64,000 nt of DNA from Lachnospiraceae bacterium P6B14 (lineage in GTDB: Bacteria > Bacillota > Clostridia > Lachnospirales > Lachnospiraceae): positions 1-64,000 of the forward strand of contig JHWZ01000001.1 in the NCBI GenBank assembly GCA_000687695.1, read 5' to 3'. Below are positions 12,895 through 48,200 of the stretch, piece by piece. The notes beneath the pieces are model-generated. The model made no database searches and was not told the origin of the DNA. It was given only the letters and a program-made list of their open reading frames with translations. Each line of letters starts with the position of its first letter. Within the stretch, counting starts at the first letter, position 1. Both the position numbers and the translations under genes were made by a program.

Positions 12895-12907
12895 GAAATA
12901 TTTTAAA

Positions 12908-13017
12908 AAATTCCTGCCGCACACGCGCGACAGGAATCTCTTCAAATAATCTTTATTCAGCTAAACAATCATTGATCACTGTTTAGCAGCGATAGCCGCC
13001 TGTGCGGCTTCCCAAGA
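12908..13017 (-). repeat. type A intergenic repeat with ppdK-like tail
   Basis: Contains the shared terminator hairpin ATTCCTG...CAGGAAT (12910-12937), the CTTCAAATAAT linker, and 5' to it on the minus strand a short frame ending AAQAAIAAKQ-stop, like the ppdK C-terminus AAAQAAIAQKA. The large hairpin of the long copies is absent. It lies directly after the GNAT gene stop. Confidence 0.75.
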
Positions 13018-20059: not shown

Positions 20060-20130
20060 CAAAAAAGATTCCTGCCGCACACACCCGCGACAGGAATTCC
20101 TTCAAATAATCATTATTTCCAGGCATCTTC
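20060..20130 (-). repeat. type A intergenic repeat, short form
   Basis: Terminator ATTCCTG...CAGGAAT (20068-20097) plus the ATAATGATTATTTGAAG linker, placed right after the NudC stop codon. Confidence 0.75.
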
Positions 20131-22007: not shown

Positions 22008-22009
22008 GA

Positions 22010-22078
22010 AAAAGACTCCTGCCGCACACCCGCGACAGGAATCTCTTCAAAATAATCTTTATTCAGCTATGCAATGAT
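22010..22078 (-). repeat. type A intergenic repeat, short form
   Basis: Terminator GACTCCTG...CAGGAATC (22014-22043), linker and ATCATTGCATAGCTGAATAA. The repeat begins at the base after the stop codon of the transglutaminase gene. Confidence 0.8.
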
Positions 22079-24380: not shown

Positions 24381-24424
24381 TAAAAAAAAAGATTCCTGCC
24401 GCACATCCGCGACAGAAATCTCTT
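24381..24424 (-). repeat. type A intergenic repeat, minimal (terminator only)
   Basis: GATTCCTG...CAGAAATC hairpin (24391-24420) abuts the stop of the PAS gene. No linker or tail remains. Confidence 0.7.
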
Positions 24425-24799
24425 TCATTTATCCCCATAATCATACCTTTCCATCATCTCCCGATTTCTATACTCGTGTTTCTCATAATATCCAATCAGT
24501 TCTCCCGTATCGTCCCGAAGTGCTACCATGTACACATCTTTATTTTGTTTCTCATTATAAAAGGTATAGATGATGTTATTCTCAACAGATTCCTTAAACC
24601 ATTCGACAACCTTTTCGATAGCTTCTCTGGACTTCTCATTATGGCAATCCATAAGTCTTTTTCCAACAAGATCAGCCCCACCCCACTTTTCGTAGTTCTT
24701 CTCAGCCACCGGATTCATATAGACTATTACATGATTTAGATCACATATTACGACCGGAGCCCGATCCTGATCAATAACGCTTTTAAAAAATGCATTCAT
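24425..24799 (-). CDS. PAS-domain protein, copy 1
   Basis: 124 residues forming one PAS fold (APVVICDLNHVIVYMNPVAE, LVGKRLMDCHN, TGELIGYYEKHE). Its ligand or partner is unknown; stand-alone PAS proteins of this size may sense redox or haem. It is contained in a 413-bp segment (24426-24838) repeated at 44965-45377 with only four base differences. Confidence 0.85.
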   Translation of the reverse strand: MNAFFKSVIDQDRAPVVICDLNHVIVYMNPVAEKNYEKWGGADLVGKRLMDCHNEKSREAIEKVVEWFKESVENNIIYTFYNEKQNKDVYMVALRDDTGELIGYYEKHEYRNREMMERYDYGDK

Positions 24800-26713: not shown

Positions 26714-26775
26714 AAAAAGATTCCTGCCACACATCCGCGACAGGAATCTCTTCAAACAATCATTATTAAGAAAGA
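26714..26775 (-). repeat. type A intergenic repeat, short form
   Basis: Terminator GATTCCTG...CAGGAATC (26719-26748) and linker; 5' of it on the minus strand about 70 nt of non-repeat sequence precede the GNAT stop at 26845. Confidence 0.75.
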
Positions 26776-26844
26776 ATACCATCTCCTCCGGAACCGAAAT
26801 ACTGACATTCTGTAAGCTCATACTGAACCCGCCTCAGGATTATC

Positions 26845-27949: not shown

Positions 27950-28160
27950 AAAAAAGATTCCTGCCGCACTCCCGCGACAGGAATCTCACTAAATAATCAT
28001 TATTGCTTCAGGCAATCATTAGTCAGGACGACGTCAGGAACTCCGGCGAGCATGTTCTGCCCACGCACGGACGCGTGGGCTGCGATGCCGGATTCCTTGA
28101 TTACCCCTTTTGGCTGATTGCCGCCTGGGCGGCCGCCAGCAAACATGGGTATCGGGAACA
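27950..28160 (-). repeat. type A intergenic repeat, long copy 1
   Basis: Minus order: tail reading LAAAQAAISQKG-stop (ends near 28105), structured hairpin 28037-28096, GACGTCGTCCTGACTAATG, linker, terminator 27956-27985. It follows the XRE-zinc ribbon gene by about 10 bp. The hairpin stem differs from copies 2 and 3 by paired changes. Confidence 0.88.
28037..28096 (-). ncRNA. covarying hairpin within long repeat copy 1
   Basis: Outer stem GGAATCCGGC/GCCGGAGTTCC with one bulged base, a GA-type internal loop, a 3-bp stem, a 6-nt bulge, an 8-bp stem GCCCACGC/GCGTGGGC and the hexaloop GTCCGT on the minus strand. It may act as RNA or as DNA hairpin. Confidence 0.6.
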
Positions 28161-31114: not shown

Positions 31115-31195
31115 CAAAAAGATTCCTGCCGCACCCTCGCGACAGGAATCTCACTAAATAATCATTATTGCTTCAGGCAATCATTGATTTTCACG
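31115..31195 (-). repeat. type A intergenic repeat, orphan copy
   Basis: Terminator GATTCCTG...CAGGAATC (31121-31150) and linker with AATGATTGCCTGAAGCAATAA, but no minus-strand gene precedes it; the plus-strand heptose locus begins 80 bp away. The gene it once served seems to have been lost or replaced. Confidence 0.78.
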
Positions 31196-43919: not shown

Positions 43920-44150
43920 CAAAAAAGACTCCTGCCGCAAATCCACGACAGGAATCTCTTCAAATAATCATTATTCAGCTATGCAATGATTAGTCAGGAC
44001 GACGTCAGGAACTCCGGCGAGTATGTCTTGTCCGCGCACGGACGCGCGGACTACGAAGCCGGATTCCTTGTTCACGCCTTTTTGTGCATGGCTTCCAAAG
44101 GAAGACATTTAGCCGCCTGTGCGACTGCGGGCAAAACGAGGGTATCGAAG
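43920..44150 (-). repeat. type A/B hybrid repeat, long copy 2
   Basis: Minus order: tail VAQAAKCLPLEAMHKKA-stop (type B form), hairpin 44008-44067, GACGTCGTCCTGACTAATC, linker, terminator 43927-43956. Joining of the type B tail to the type A structure shows that the two types are one family. Confidence 0.88.
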
Positions 44151-44614: not shown

Positions 44615-44977
44615 TCACACAAGTTCCTTATAATATGGACAAATGTTTTCAAAATGTCCATCCTTCATCCGAAAGCCACCCGGAATCGTTCCGAGTTGCT
44701 TAAACCCAAGTCTTTCATACAGATGCCTTGCGTGCGTGTTCGATTCAACTACAGCATTAAACTGCAACACTCTGAATCCAAGTCTTTTGGCCTGTTCAAT
44801 GCAATCCTCTTTCTCAGCTACTCCACAATAGCTTTGACCAGCATAGAACTCAGCCCCGGAGGTATCATTCAGCGTTTCTTCCTGCGGAAAAGCTATCCCT
44901 TCAATTACAACTTCATTCCATACTCGATTCATCCCCGAAATATCTGATTCCTGATACTTTCTAACATTTATCCCCAT
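44615..44977 (-). pseudogene. GNAT acetyltransferase with its acetyl-CoA core deleted
   Basis: 120 residues. The start (RKYQESDISGMNRVWNEVV) and end (CIEQAKRLGFRVLQFNAVVE, THARHLYERLGFKQLG) are typical of one GNAT subfamily, but GVAEKED runs straight into CIEQAKR. The central strand with the RxxGxG loop, about 40-45 residues, is missing, in frame. Catalysis is unlikely. The start codons lie inside the duplicated PAS segment, so the duplication also replaced the 5' end. Confidence 0.75.
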
Positions 44978-45338
44978 AATCATACCTTTCCATCATCTCC
45001 CGATTTCTATACTCGTGTTTCTCATAATATCCAATCAGTTCTCCCGTATCGTCCCGAAGTGCTACCATGTACACATCTTTGTTTTGTTTCTCATTATAAA
45101 AGGTATAGATGATGTTATTCTCAACAGATTCCTTAAACCATTCGACAACCTTTTCGATAGCTTCTCTGGACTTCTCATTATGGCAATCCATAAGACTATT
45201 TCCAACAAGATCAGCCCCACCCCACTTTTCGTAGTTCTTCTCAGCCACAGGATTCATATAGACTATTACATGATTTAGATCACATATTACGACCGGAGCC
45301 CGATCCTGATCAATAACGCTTTTAAAAAATGCATTCAT
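44961..45338 (-). CDS. PAS-domain protein, copy 2
   Basis: 125 residues, identical to copy 1 at 24425 except for NS in place of KR (LVGNSLMDCHN) and one extra C-terminal Cys created at the repeat border. It overlaps the start of the damaged GNAT gene. Confidence 0.85.
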   Translation of the reverse strand: MNAFFKSVIDQDRAPVVICDLNHVIVYMNPVAEKNYEKWGGADLVGNSLMDCHNEKSREAIEKVVEWFKESVENNIIYTFYNEKQNKDVYMVALRDDTGELIGYYEKHEYRNREMMERYDYGDKC

Positions 45339-45377: not shown

Positions 45378-45411
45378 CATGGCATAAAGCAAGGAATATC
45401 TCTACTCATAA

Positions 45412-45600
45412 AAAAGATTCCTGCCACACACCCGCGACAGGAATCTCTTTAAATAATCATTATTTTGCTATGCAATGATTAGTCAGGACGACGTCAGGAA
45501 CTCCGGCGAGTATGTCTTGTCCGCGCACGGACGCGCGGACTACGAAGCCGGATTCCTTGTTCACGCTTTTTGTGCGATAGCCGCCTGTGCTGCTGCCAGT
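45412..45600 (-). repeat. ppdK 3' end: long repeat copy 3
   Basis: Minus order: ppdK codons LAAAQAAIAQKA-stop, hairpin 45497-45556, GACGTCGTCCTGACTAATC, linker, terminator 45416-45445. The hairpin is identical to copy 2. The C-terminal residues fit other PPDKs (RVPIARLAAAQAA), so this is the likely parent copy. Confidence 0.85.
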
Positions 45601-48200
45601 CTTGCGATCGGCACACGGAACGGTGAACATGATACATAGTCGAGACCGAGCTTGTTGCAGAACTCAACAGATGTCGGATCACCACCGTGCTCACCACAGA
45701 TACCGCAGTGAAGTGACGGATTCTCAGGCTTACCAAGCTTAAGAGCTGTCTCCATAAGCTTACCAACACCCTCCTGATCAAGCTTAGCAAACGGATCGTT
45801 CTCGAAGATCTTTGCATCATAGTAAGCATCAAGGAACTTACCTGCATCATCACGTGAGAAGCCGAATGTCATCTGAGTAAGGTCGTTCGTACCGAAGCAG
45901 AAGAAGTCAGCTTCCTTAGCGATCTCGTCAGCTGTAAGAGCAGCTCTCGGGATCTCGATCATGGTACCTACCTCATACTCAAGTTTAACACCTGCTGCCT
46001 CGATCTCGGCATCAGCTGTCTCTACGACAAACTTCTTAACATACTTAAGCTCTTTGATATCGCCTACGAGCGGGATCATGATCTCCGGCTTAACGTTCCA
46101 GTCAGAATGCTCTTTCTGTACTTCGATAGCTGCACGGATAACAGCCTTTGTCTGCATTTTGGCGATCTCAGGATATGTGACAGCCAGACGGCATCCACGA
46201 TGACCCATCATCGGGTTAAACTCCTTGAGACCCTCAACGATAGCCTTAACCTCGTCGAGTGATTTGCCAAGTGCGTCAGCAAGCTTCTTCTGCTCAGCCT
46301 CCTCGTGAGGAACGAACTCATGAAGCGGCGGATCCAGGAAGCGGATAGTAACCGGGTTACCCTCAAGTGCCTCATAGAGAGCCTTGAAGTCTGACTGCTG
46401 ATAAGGAAGGATCTTGTCAAGTGCCTTCTCACGGGCCTCAGCTGTGTCAGCACAGATCATCTCACGGAATGCTGCGATACGATCCTCCTCGAAGAACATA
46501 TGCTCTGTACGGCAAAGTCCGATACCCTCAGCACCGAGCTCACGAGCCTTCTTAGCGTCAGCCGGTGTATCAGCGTTTGTACGAACCTTCATTGTACGAT
46601 ATTTATCTGCCCAACCCATGATGCGGCCGAACTCGCCGGCGATCTCAGCATCCTTGGTCGGGATGATACCTTCATAGATGTTACCTGTTGTACCGTCGAT
46701 AGAGATCTCAGATCCCTCAACGAATGTTTTTCCTGCGAGAACGAACTTTTTGTTCTCCTCGTCCATATCGATGTCGCCACAACCTGATACGCAGCACTCG
46801 CCCATACCACGTGCAACAACGGCAGCATGTGATGTCATACCACCACGTACTGTAAGGATACCCTCAGCACTCTTCATACCTGTGATATCCTCCGGTGAAG
46901 TCTCAAGACGAACAAGGATAACCTTCTCGCCACGAGCTGCCCACTCAACAGCGTCATCAGCTGTGAATACGCATTTACCGCAAGCAGCACCGGGAGAAGC
47001 TCCAAGACCCTTACCGATCGGAGTAGCTGCCTTAAGAGCTGCTGTATCGAACTGCGGATGAAGCAGAGTATCGAGGTTACGCGGATCGATCATTGCTACA
47101 GCCTCTTCCTCTGTCTTGTGTCCCTCATCTACGAGGTCACATGCGATCTTAAGTGCTGCAGGAGCTGTTCTCTTACCATTTCTACACTGAAGCATGTAGA
47201 GCTTCTTGTTCTCAACGGTGAACTCCATATCCTGCATATCATGATAATGATTCTCAAGTGTGTCACAAACCTTGATGAACTCAGCGTAAGCCTCAGGGAA
47301 CTCCTGCTCCATCTGAGCGATCGGCATCGGTGTACGTACACCTGCAACGACGTCCTCACCCTGTGCATTTTTAAGGAACTCGCCCATAAGCTTGTTCTCA
47401 CCTGTTGCCGGGTCACGTGTGAATGCCACACCTGTACCTGACTCATCGTTAAGGTTACCGAATACCATCGGCATAACGTTTACTGCTGTACCCCAGCTAT
47501 ACGGGATATCGTTGTCACGACGATATACGTTCGCACGCGGGTTATCCCATGAACGGAACACGGCCTCGATAGCGAGCTTGAGCTGCTGTACCGGATCAGA
47601 CGGGAAGTCCTCACCGAGCTGCTTCTTGTACTCAGCCTTGAACTGCTCTGCCAACTCTTTAAGATCAGCTGCAGTAAGATCTACGTCATACTGAACGCCC
47701 TTCTTCTCTTTCATCTGGTCGATCAGCTGCTCGAAGTACTTTTTGCCGACCTCCATAACTACGTCAGAGAACATCTGGATGAAACGACGATATGAATCGT
47801 ATACAAAACGCTCAAACGCCGGATCCGGGTTTCCTGCGATCATCGCAGCAACAACCTCGTCATTAAGTCCCAGGTTAAGGATGGTATCCATCATACCCGG
47901 CATGGAAGCACGTGCTCCCGAACGAACTGATACGAGAAGAGGATTCTTCAGATCGCCGAACTTCTTGCCGTTGATCTCCTCCATCTTCTTGACTCCGTCC
48001 ATTGCCTGACCCATGATCTCATCATTGATCTTGCGGCCATCCTCATAATACTGTGTACAAGCCTCGGTAGTGATGGTGAATCCCTGCGGTACCGGAAGAC
48101 CGATATCGGTCATCTCTGCAAGGTTCGCACCTTTTCCACCAAGGAGGTTGCGCATGCTCATGTCACCCTCTGAGAACATATAAACCCATTTGTTTGCCAT
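45561..48200 (-). CDS. ppdK: pyruvate, phosphate dikinase
   Basis: 879 residues, the usual length. The N-terminal ATP-grasp domain includes NLLGGKGANLAEM and SVRSGARASMPGMMDTILN. The swivelling phospho-His domain has His458 in GGMTSHAAVVARGMG. The C-terminal TIM barrel ends with CGICGEHGGDP, carrying the catalytic Cys. It interconverts pyruvate, ATP and phosphate with PEP, AMP and PPi, central to carbon flow in many anaerobes. Start ATG follows AGGAGG. Promoter TTGACC-17-TATACT at 48248-48276. Its 3' end forms the parent-like copy of the dispersed repeat. Confidence 0.98.
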   Translation of the reverse strand: MANKWVYMFSEGDMSMRNLLGGKGANLAEMTDIGLPVPQGFTITTEACTQYYEDGRKINDEIMGQAMDGVKKMEEINGKKFGDLKNPLLVSVRSGARASMPGMMDTILNLGLNDEVVAAMIAGNPDPAFERFVYDSYRRFIQMFSDVVMEVGKKYFEQLIDQMKEKKGVQYDVDLTAADLKELAEQFKAEYKKQLGEDFPSDPVQQLKLAIEAVFRSWDNPRANVYRRDNDIPYSWGTAVNVMPMVFGNLNDESGTGVAFTRDPATGENKLMGEFLKNAQGEDVVAGVRTPMPIAQMEQEFPEAYAEFIKVCDTLENHYHDMQDMEFTVENKKLYMLQCRNGKRTAPAALKIACDLVDEGHKTEEEAVAMIDPRNLDTLLHPQFDTAALKAATPIGKGLGASPGAACGKCVFTADDAVEWAARGEKVILVRLETSPEDITGMKSAEGILTVRGGMTSHAAVVARGMGECCVSGCGDIDMDEENKKFVLAGKTFVEGSEISIDGTTGNIYEGIIPTKDAEIAGEFGRIMGWADKYRTMKVRTNADTPADAKKARELGAEGIGLCRTEHMFFEEDRIAAFREMICADTAEAREKALDKILPYQQSDFKALYEALEGNPVTIRFLDPPLHEFVPHEEAEQKKLADALGKSLDEVKAIVEGLKEFNPMMGHRGCRLAVTYPEIAKMQTKAVIRAAIEVQKEHSDWNVKPEIMIPLVGDIKELKYVKKFVVETADAEIEAAGVKLEYEVGTMIEIPRAALTADEIAKEADFFCFGTNDLTQMTFGFSRDDAGKFLDAYYDAKIFENDPFAKLDQEGVGKLMETALKLGKPENPSLHCGICGEHGGDPTSVEFCNKLGLDYVSCSPFRVPIARLAAAQAAIAQKA

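Follow-up and report, generated by a model that had tools for sequence, protein, structure and literature searches.

The covarying hairpin of the 64,000-nt stretch of Lachnospiraceae bacterium P6B14 DNA analysed here (the window) is very probably part of a compact, non-autonomous mobile element of 78 nt with two hairpins, which would be mobilised by an enzyme in trans via its fold and would enter genes as survivable inserts of 26 codons. Judged by species comparison, each insertion at a new site adds 78 nt net without a detectable target-site duplication, and the element has entered coding genes in either orientation as well as intergenic DNA and other repeats. It is apparently selfish DNA, dispersed through the genomes of related gut bacteria, and we read it as a protein-coding palindromic mobile element of previously undescribed form.

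Definition and structure of the 78-nt element

The unit was defined by aligning five copies from the window genome, three from the window and two diverged ones from elsewhere. It measures 78 nt (26 codons), with exact ends uncertain by 1-2 nt, and is found at 28021-28098, 43992-44069 and 45481-45558, all on the minus strand. The first of these copies was read directly and matched the covariance model at E about 1e-20, a value obtained among the model's own sequences. The second and third were located by blastn and by covariance-model matches, the third beginning 2 nt after the stop codon of the pyruvate phosphate dikinase (PPDK) gene that lies upstream of it (45561-48200, minus strand; Pfam PPDK_N and PEP-utilizers). 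In the own genome, which comprises 2.69 Mb in 35 contigs, blastn placed the window copies within a longer repeat and the two diverged copies elsewhere.

Read in the forward direction, i.e., on the window minus strand, the element consists of A-N, a long hairpin with one bulged base, a short linker, a small hairpin and a T. In the first copy, the long hairpin (28037-28096, minus strand), as evident from folds and covariation, comprises an outer 10-bp stem with the one bulged base, a 3-bp stem, an inner stem and the loop TCCG. This hairpin is the one delineated in the initial annotation and it is present as described; 18 nt of the 78-nt unit were left out, and so was the small hairpin (GTCGTCCTGAC on the minus strand, 28022-28032), which is helix 4 of the covariation counts given below. 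The inner stem of the long hairpin is closed by RYATCC(G/A)TRY, and the small hairpin reads, for example, GACA-TCC-TGTC. The loop is TCCG or TCCA in the long hairpin and TCC or TCG in the small one, both loops being embedded in nearly the same sequence, RYATC(C/G)..TGY. Catalogued copies are 76 to 79 nt long, apart from single copies of 73 and 74 nt. In a copy at 1501-1574 of contig C69 of genome G048 (L140), the long hairpin is a near-perfect palindrome with a stem of about 27 bp and a fold z of -12.3 against shuffles; it is perhaps the youngest copy.

Fold and covariation

Three compensated pairs, claimed earlier between the copy at 28 kb and those at 44 and 45.5 kb, can be read directly in the sequence. 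Positions 28037-28096 read GCCCACGC-ACGGAC-GCGTGGGC, with GCA/TGC as the flanking 3-bp stem, and positions 44008-44067 and 45497-45556 read GTCCGCGC-ACGGAC-GCGCGGAC, with GTA/TAC as the flanking stem. Because no difference separates the 44-kb from the 45.5-kb copy in this stretch, the window alone provides one comparison, not two. When folded as minus-strand RNA, the 28-kb copy gave a z of -3.80 and the 44-kb copy a z of -3.30, with 0 of 200 shuffles as good in either case.

When 26 copies from six genomes, 25 of them distinct, were aligned, pairing was seen in 88.5% of the cells, compared with 76.8% after shuffling and at most 46.4% with the partners slid. The covariation score was 0.397 versus 0.190 for shuffled alignments (reached by 0 of 500) and at most 0.118 for slid partners, and double-sided changes were found at 18 of the 26 pairs. 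The small hairpin covaries too. With one copy per site, covering 17 of 24 sites, 90.0% of the cells were paired, 18 of 26 pairs had changed on both sides, and the score was 0.427 versus 0.206 (again reached by 0 of 500 shuffles) and at most 0.134 when slid. Weak spots are two A-U pairs of the outer stem, which are unpaired in 10 and 7 of the 17 rows. The 17-site alignment (A6) omits copies G048d, G011j, G011k, G009b, G022a, G022e and G043a, most of them too divergent for unguided alignment, and alignment A4 omits L025, which is identical to L019. The selection for the folded form that had been proposed from the window is supported by the covariation across copies in the 26-copy and 17-site alignments; an absence of covariation among many copies was looked for, and values well above those of shuffles were obtained.

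The first covariance model (R1), built from the five own-genome copies, carried a structure that lacked the small hairpin and the 3-bp stem and was displaced by one column in its outer stem and by two in its inner one, with 50 of 85 cells pairing in the model's own five sequences. Because of this register error, R1 acted mainly as a sequence profile; the copies found with it were thus not selected for true pairing, and the covariation counted was not produced by the model. The second covariance model (R2) was built from 26 copies, and its structure is the one counted in the 26-copy covariation.

Filled and empty sites in genes

G000 denotes the window genome and other G numbers denote genomes of the same genus; gains were checked by residue counts. 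Among coding sites with an orthologous comparator, the frame was kept in five of six and broken in one of six.

The WYL-domain regulator of the window genome contains 26 in-frame extra codons relative to six of the eight insert-free orthologues aligned (G048, G015, G008, G010, G011, G009, G022 and G005), G015 and G009 having one extra codon there. In G043 (L088, contig C42), an insert of the same length as that of G000 is found at the same site with the frame kept. It is related to the element (alignment score of 18, the best of 1000 shuffles reaching 15) and folds no better than shuffles (z of +1.5; 81 nt folded, three of them beyond the insert); the WYL-gene copy of the element folds little better than shuffles (z of -0.64 and -1.28 in two runs). 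In this gene, G000 has its closest relative in G048 and is much more distant from G043. Since G048 is empty despite being closest to G000, either the insert was lost precisely from G048, or it entered twice at the same place, or alleles were exchanged. AlphaFold gave a poor model of the regulator (mean pLDDT of 60.8 with 8 sequences), in which the insert, residues 205-231, falls under pLDDT 50, and the model is given no weight here.

In carB, exactly 26 codons more are present in G009 than in G000, G048, G002, G008, G043 and G015, and the insert maps between residues 746 and 747 of CarB 1bxr, which we take to be the E. coli enzyme. At the same CarB position, 26 extra residues are found in G022 (L163), 7 in G011 (L164) and 8 in G007 (L165). 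The 26-residue insert of G022 was considered as a decayed element copy and rejected, its similarity being undetectable (166 of 1000 shuffles scored as well); the extra residues of G011 and G007 were also left out of the copy counts.

In sufU (NifU_N), a single 78-nt unit with a further 21 nt is found in G000 and a tandem pair of 78-nt units in G048, with none in the seven other genomes aligned, among which the sufU tail itself varies by 1-2 codons. A gain of 26 codons was likewise found in an AlkZ-related gene of G011 in comparison with G007, and close to the N-terminal end of a further G011 protein, which looks VWA-like by eye but has no Pfam match, in comparison with G048, G003 and G054. The frameshift case is a copy in a second gene of G043, where the net difference is 80 nt. 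Long open frames for which there is no comparator hold two further copies, one in G011 (a fibronectin type III protein) and one in G015 (an EF-G-like protein). At C2:194602 of G000, a small putative gene receives a stop codon from the copy within it, and a search for an orthologue as comparator found none.

Of the 39 copies in the catalogue, 32 have an open forward frame. Mean entropy at codon positions 1, 2 and 3 was 1.00, 0.92 and 0.81, respectively (usual forward frame; 23 catalogued 78-nt copies), so that third positions vary least, which is the opposite of what protein selection produces. Given that third positions are the most conserved and that one old insert has kept its length and frame without the fold, the fold seems to belong to the element that moves and not to a host RNA or peptide.

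Copies and distribution

A search of 39 genomes of the genus with R1 yielded 27 matches at E up to 0.1 in six genomes, and with R2 42 matches at E up to 1 in nine genomes. Thirty-eight copies had E up to 4e-6 and came from eight of the 39 genomes. Of the remaining matches, G009:C44:15788 (E 0.036) was kept, giving a catalogue of 39 copies, and three (E 0.034, 0.27 and 0.70) were dropped. By our grouping, the catalogue corresponds to about 24 sites, several copies being duplicates of host repeats and not separate insertions. Copies occur in both orientations relative to genes, after stop codons, between genes and within other repeats.

In an order-level sample (392 genomes from 173 genera, with at least two others of the same genus), the own genome was the only match under a stricter filter, which scored 12 candidates per listed genome, so that distant relatives could be missed. 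One window copy had no match in phages and plasmids, and two element patterns had none in viral contigs. A pattern scan of genome contigs returned six stretches, four from one sheep-rumen metagenome-assembled genome (MAG), one from an uncultured Lachnospiraceae MAG and one from Burkholderiales, the last taken as a chance match.

Nesting in longer repeats

Each window copy is nested in a longer host repeat (family D2) on the minus strand, at 27950-28139, 43921-44110 and 45410-45599, with a terminator-like stem on one side of the element and a GCCGCC..GGCGGC palindrome on the other. An element-free version of this repeat is found on contig C26 of the same genome, with a net difference of 77 nt, not 78. 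As the host repeat thus exists without the element, the three window copies look like one nested insertion that was multiplied with the repeat. In G022, a repeat of about 220 bp, whose inverted ends are of the TCGATTTTG..GTTAACT type, is present in four copies (L131, L135, L136 and L139) with the element inside; this is likewise read as a nested insertion that was amplified later.

Mobility and alternative explanations

Movement is deduced from the comparison of species, not from observation within a strain. At 24 sites, no target duplication of any length k from 2 to 5 bp rose above permutation; the best 2-bp flank match, in 6 of 24 sites, was reached in 62 of 200 permutations. The right flank starts with A in 14 of 24 sites and with AC in 8 of 24, a mild preference (P about 7e-5 if AC is the one dinucleotide considered; 34 of 5000 simulations with every dinucleotide at seven positions admitted). 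On the opposite strand, GTAG is read across the junction in six of the eight AC-flanked sites, i.e., in 6 of 24 overall. The earlier suggestion of a DNA hairpin used in mobility is supported as regards mobility, by empty orthologous sites, nesting in another repeat and a narrow, patchy distribution; as to the active form, it could be single-stranded DNA or RNA.

We propose that a trans-acting enzyme would recognise the folded single strand, either DNA or RNA followed by reverse transcription, via the two loops and the bulge. If the enzyme reads the folded strand, only copies that fold would keep moving. The length, a multiple of three, together with the open frames, would let many gene insertions survive as translated 26-residue inserts, which could then decay in sequence while the host frame is kept. 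A bolder version of this proposal, possible but on the doubtful side, is a new class of mobility: a 78-nt double-hairpin replicon that causes no target duplication, whose enzyme recognises both loops in a folded single strand of DNA or RNA, whose length and frames were shaped so that inserts in essential genes are translated and tolerated, and which can also exit precisely from its sites (as at the WYL site, filled in G000, decayed in G043 and empty in G048).

Several other explanations were weighed against the mobile element mobilised in trans. Minimal IS200/IS605 elements have two end hairpins and cause no target duplication, and Y1 transposases are thought to move GTAG REPs. The two hairpins and the missing duplication at our sites, the AC at the right flank in 8 of 24 and the GTAG across the junction in six of those eight would therefore suit an element of the REP type whose Y1 transposase (RAYT or IS200-type) has since been lost or was missed. 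We consider this unlikely, as 18 of the 24 sites have no GTAG at the junction, the unit measures 78 nt and not 20-40, and Y1_Tnp (E up to 0.001) was detected in 10 of the 39 genus genomes but in none of the eight carriers, which are draft genomes. A Y1 transposase was accordingly rejected as mobiliser for these eight drafts, and the open reading frame lists of three carrier contigs, inspected by eye, contained no recognisable transposase or partner gene. A role as RNA in the 3' UTR, also raised in the initial annotation, agrees with the location of the window copies downstream of minus-strand genes and upstream of the terminator-like repeat, and with a G011 copy on contig C220 that begins 2 nt after guaA (gene named by eye); the element would then act in cis on mRNA stability or termination and would have been copied along with terminators. 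Since copies lie within carB, the WYL regulator, sufU and other coding regions on either strand, such a role cannot explain the family. The terminator-like repeat, moreover, also exists without the element, and in Rfam the window gave two tRNAs and nothing else at gathering score, while five loci gave no hit at E up to 1, all of which makes the 3'-UTR reading very unlikely.

It is highly improbable that the insert is removed or skipped at the RNA or translation level, as a small intron or bypass element that leaves genes unaffected. The interruption of genes of essential type, such as carB and sufU, could be accommodated in this way, but the open frame kept in the five frame-keeping genes with a comparator would be needless if the insert were skipped, and the catalogued copies span 73 to 79 nt. 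The CsrA consensus resembles loops that display GGA, and on the window plus strand both loops of the element show GGA, many copies having ACACGGATGT and ACAGGATGT as their opposite-strand loops. That the element is an RNA ligand, for instance a decoy of the CsrA type, is hardly credible all the same, because GGA is gone from hairpin 2 of several copies, where the loop is TCG instead of TCC (e.g., G000f, G011a, G011d, G011e and G011i), and because the strand transcribed with the window neighbours has UCC in the loops, not GGA.

Relation to known palindromic elements

To our knowledge, how protein-coding palindromic elements move is an old unsolved question, and their movement and tolerance by the host have been studied mostly in Rickettsia, which is obligately intracellular. 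The present family is compact, with clean filled and empty sites, a nearly fixed length, a strongly covarying fold and two shared loops, and it occurs in a gut Lachnospiraceae lineage. Its insertion appears often to add 26 amino acids to working genes without breaking them. Sites and substrate are thereby defined and recognition features predicted, which makes it possible to test mobility and excision, as well as what the 26-residue insert does to CarB or SufU.

Rickettsia palindromic elements (RPEs) are described, in passages of two sources, as palindromes of 105-146 bp fused in frame into Rickettsia genes (PMC2229807; PMC10969869), their target duplication being marked with a question mark in a table of the former. 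Like RPEs as portrayed in passages of PMC2229807, the element is palindromic, dispersed between and inside genes, present as in-frame peptide inserts in conserved enzymes and folded into a hairpin; unlike them, it measures 78 nt instead of 105-146 bp and has a fixed two-hairpin plan with shared loops. The hosts differ as well, RPEs belonging to an intracellular alphaproteobacterium and the element to a Lachnospiraceae lineage, and the two were compared by description. Of the features that mark RPEs, the element shows a dispersed palindrome in frame in unrelated conserved genes (carB, WYL, sufU, AlkZ-related and one further, with one other frameshifted) and a stable hairpin fold kept across copies, the WYL copy being weak.

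Tagged REPs are reported from more than 80 species in passages of PMC3733652, some of them inside open reading frames as 20-30 residues, and CGTC REPs are given there as lacking a known transposase; the main text of that paper contains 0 occurrences of Firmicutes or Clostridi. The element is like GTAG and CGTC REPs, including intragenic REP dimers, in being a small palindrome that is sometimes translated, and like CGTC REPs in lacking a known transposase, as far as the REPs are covered in those passages (PMC3733652). It differs from REPs in its tags and in its 78-nt unit of two unlike hairpins. Instead of an unpaired GTAG tag beside the hairpin, GTAG was found across the junction in only 6 of 24 sites, and the RAYT (Y1) transposase of GTAG REPs was found in 0 of 8 carriers. 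Instead of the CGTC REP plan of a 20-40 bp hairpin with an adjacent unpaired CGTC, TGTC/CGTC is paired within hairpin 2, and one dRS3-like pattern had 0 matches in 180 loci.

With the MITEs ERIC, YPAL and RUP, the element shares its non-autonomous nature, shortness, stable hairpin transcripts and occasional open frames, which are MITE features according to passages of PMC2229807. It differs from MITEs in that the partner of its left end in the outer stem is an internal site instead of the right end, and in that the target-site duplication of DDE-type MITEs was not detected for k of 2-5 bp at 24 sites. In the literature consulted, no such element was found for Lachnospiraceae or Firmicutes. As the element works like RPEs and REPs, lacks their tag, size and transposase features and was not met in the literature, it is taken as a new form of a known kind.

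Further repeats around the window copies

The terminator-like stem (AGATTCCTGYCGC...GCGGCAGGAATCT followed by a T-run, minus strand) is found in eight to nine copies within 33 kb (12904-12973, 20078-20118, 22009-22078, 24386-24455, 26714-26783, 27951-28020, 31116-31185, 43922-43991 and 45411-45480), with another copy on contig C26. A terminator scan of the window did not report this repeated stem, we think because of its long loop. The last codons of PPDK (45561-45640) resemble a GCCGC-CAGGCGGC palindrome repeat that recurs elsewhere, also at 1000-1060 of G000:C26 (L013), as if the repeat supplied the C-terminal tail of PPDK or was captured from that tail. Finally, a 300-nt duplication with 98% identity links 24421-24720 and 44960-45259 and covers part of a PAS-domain gene.
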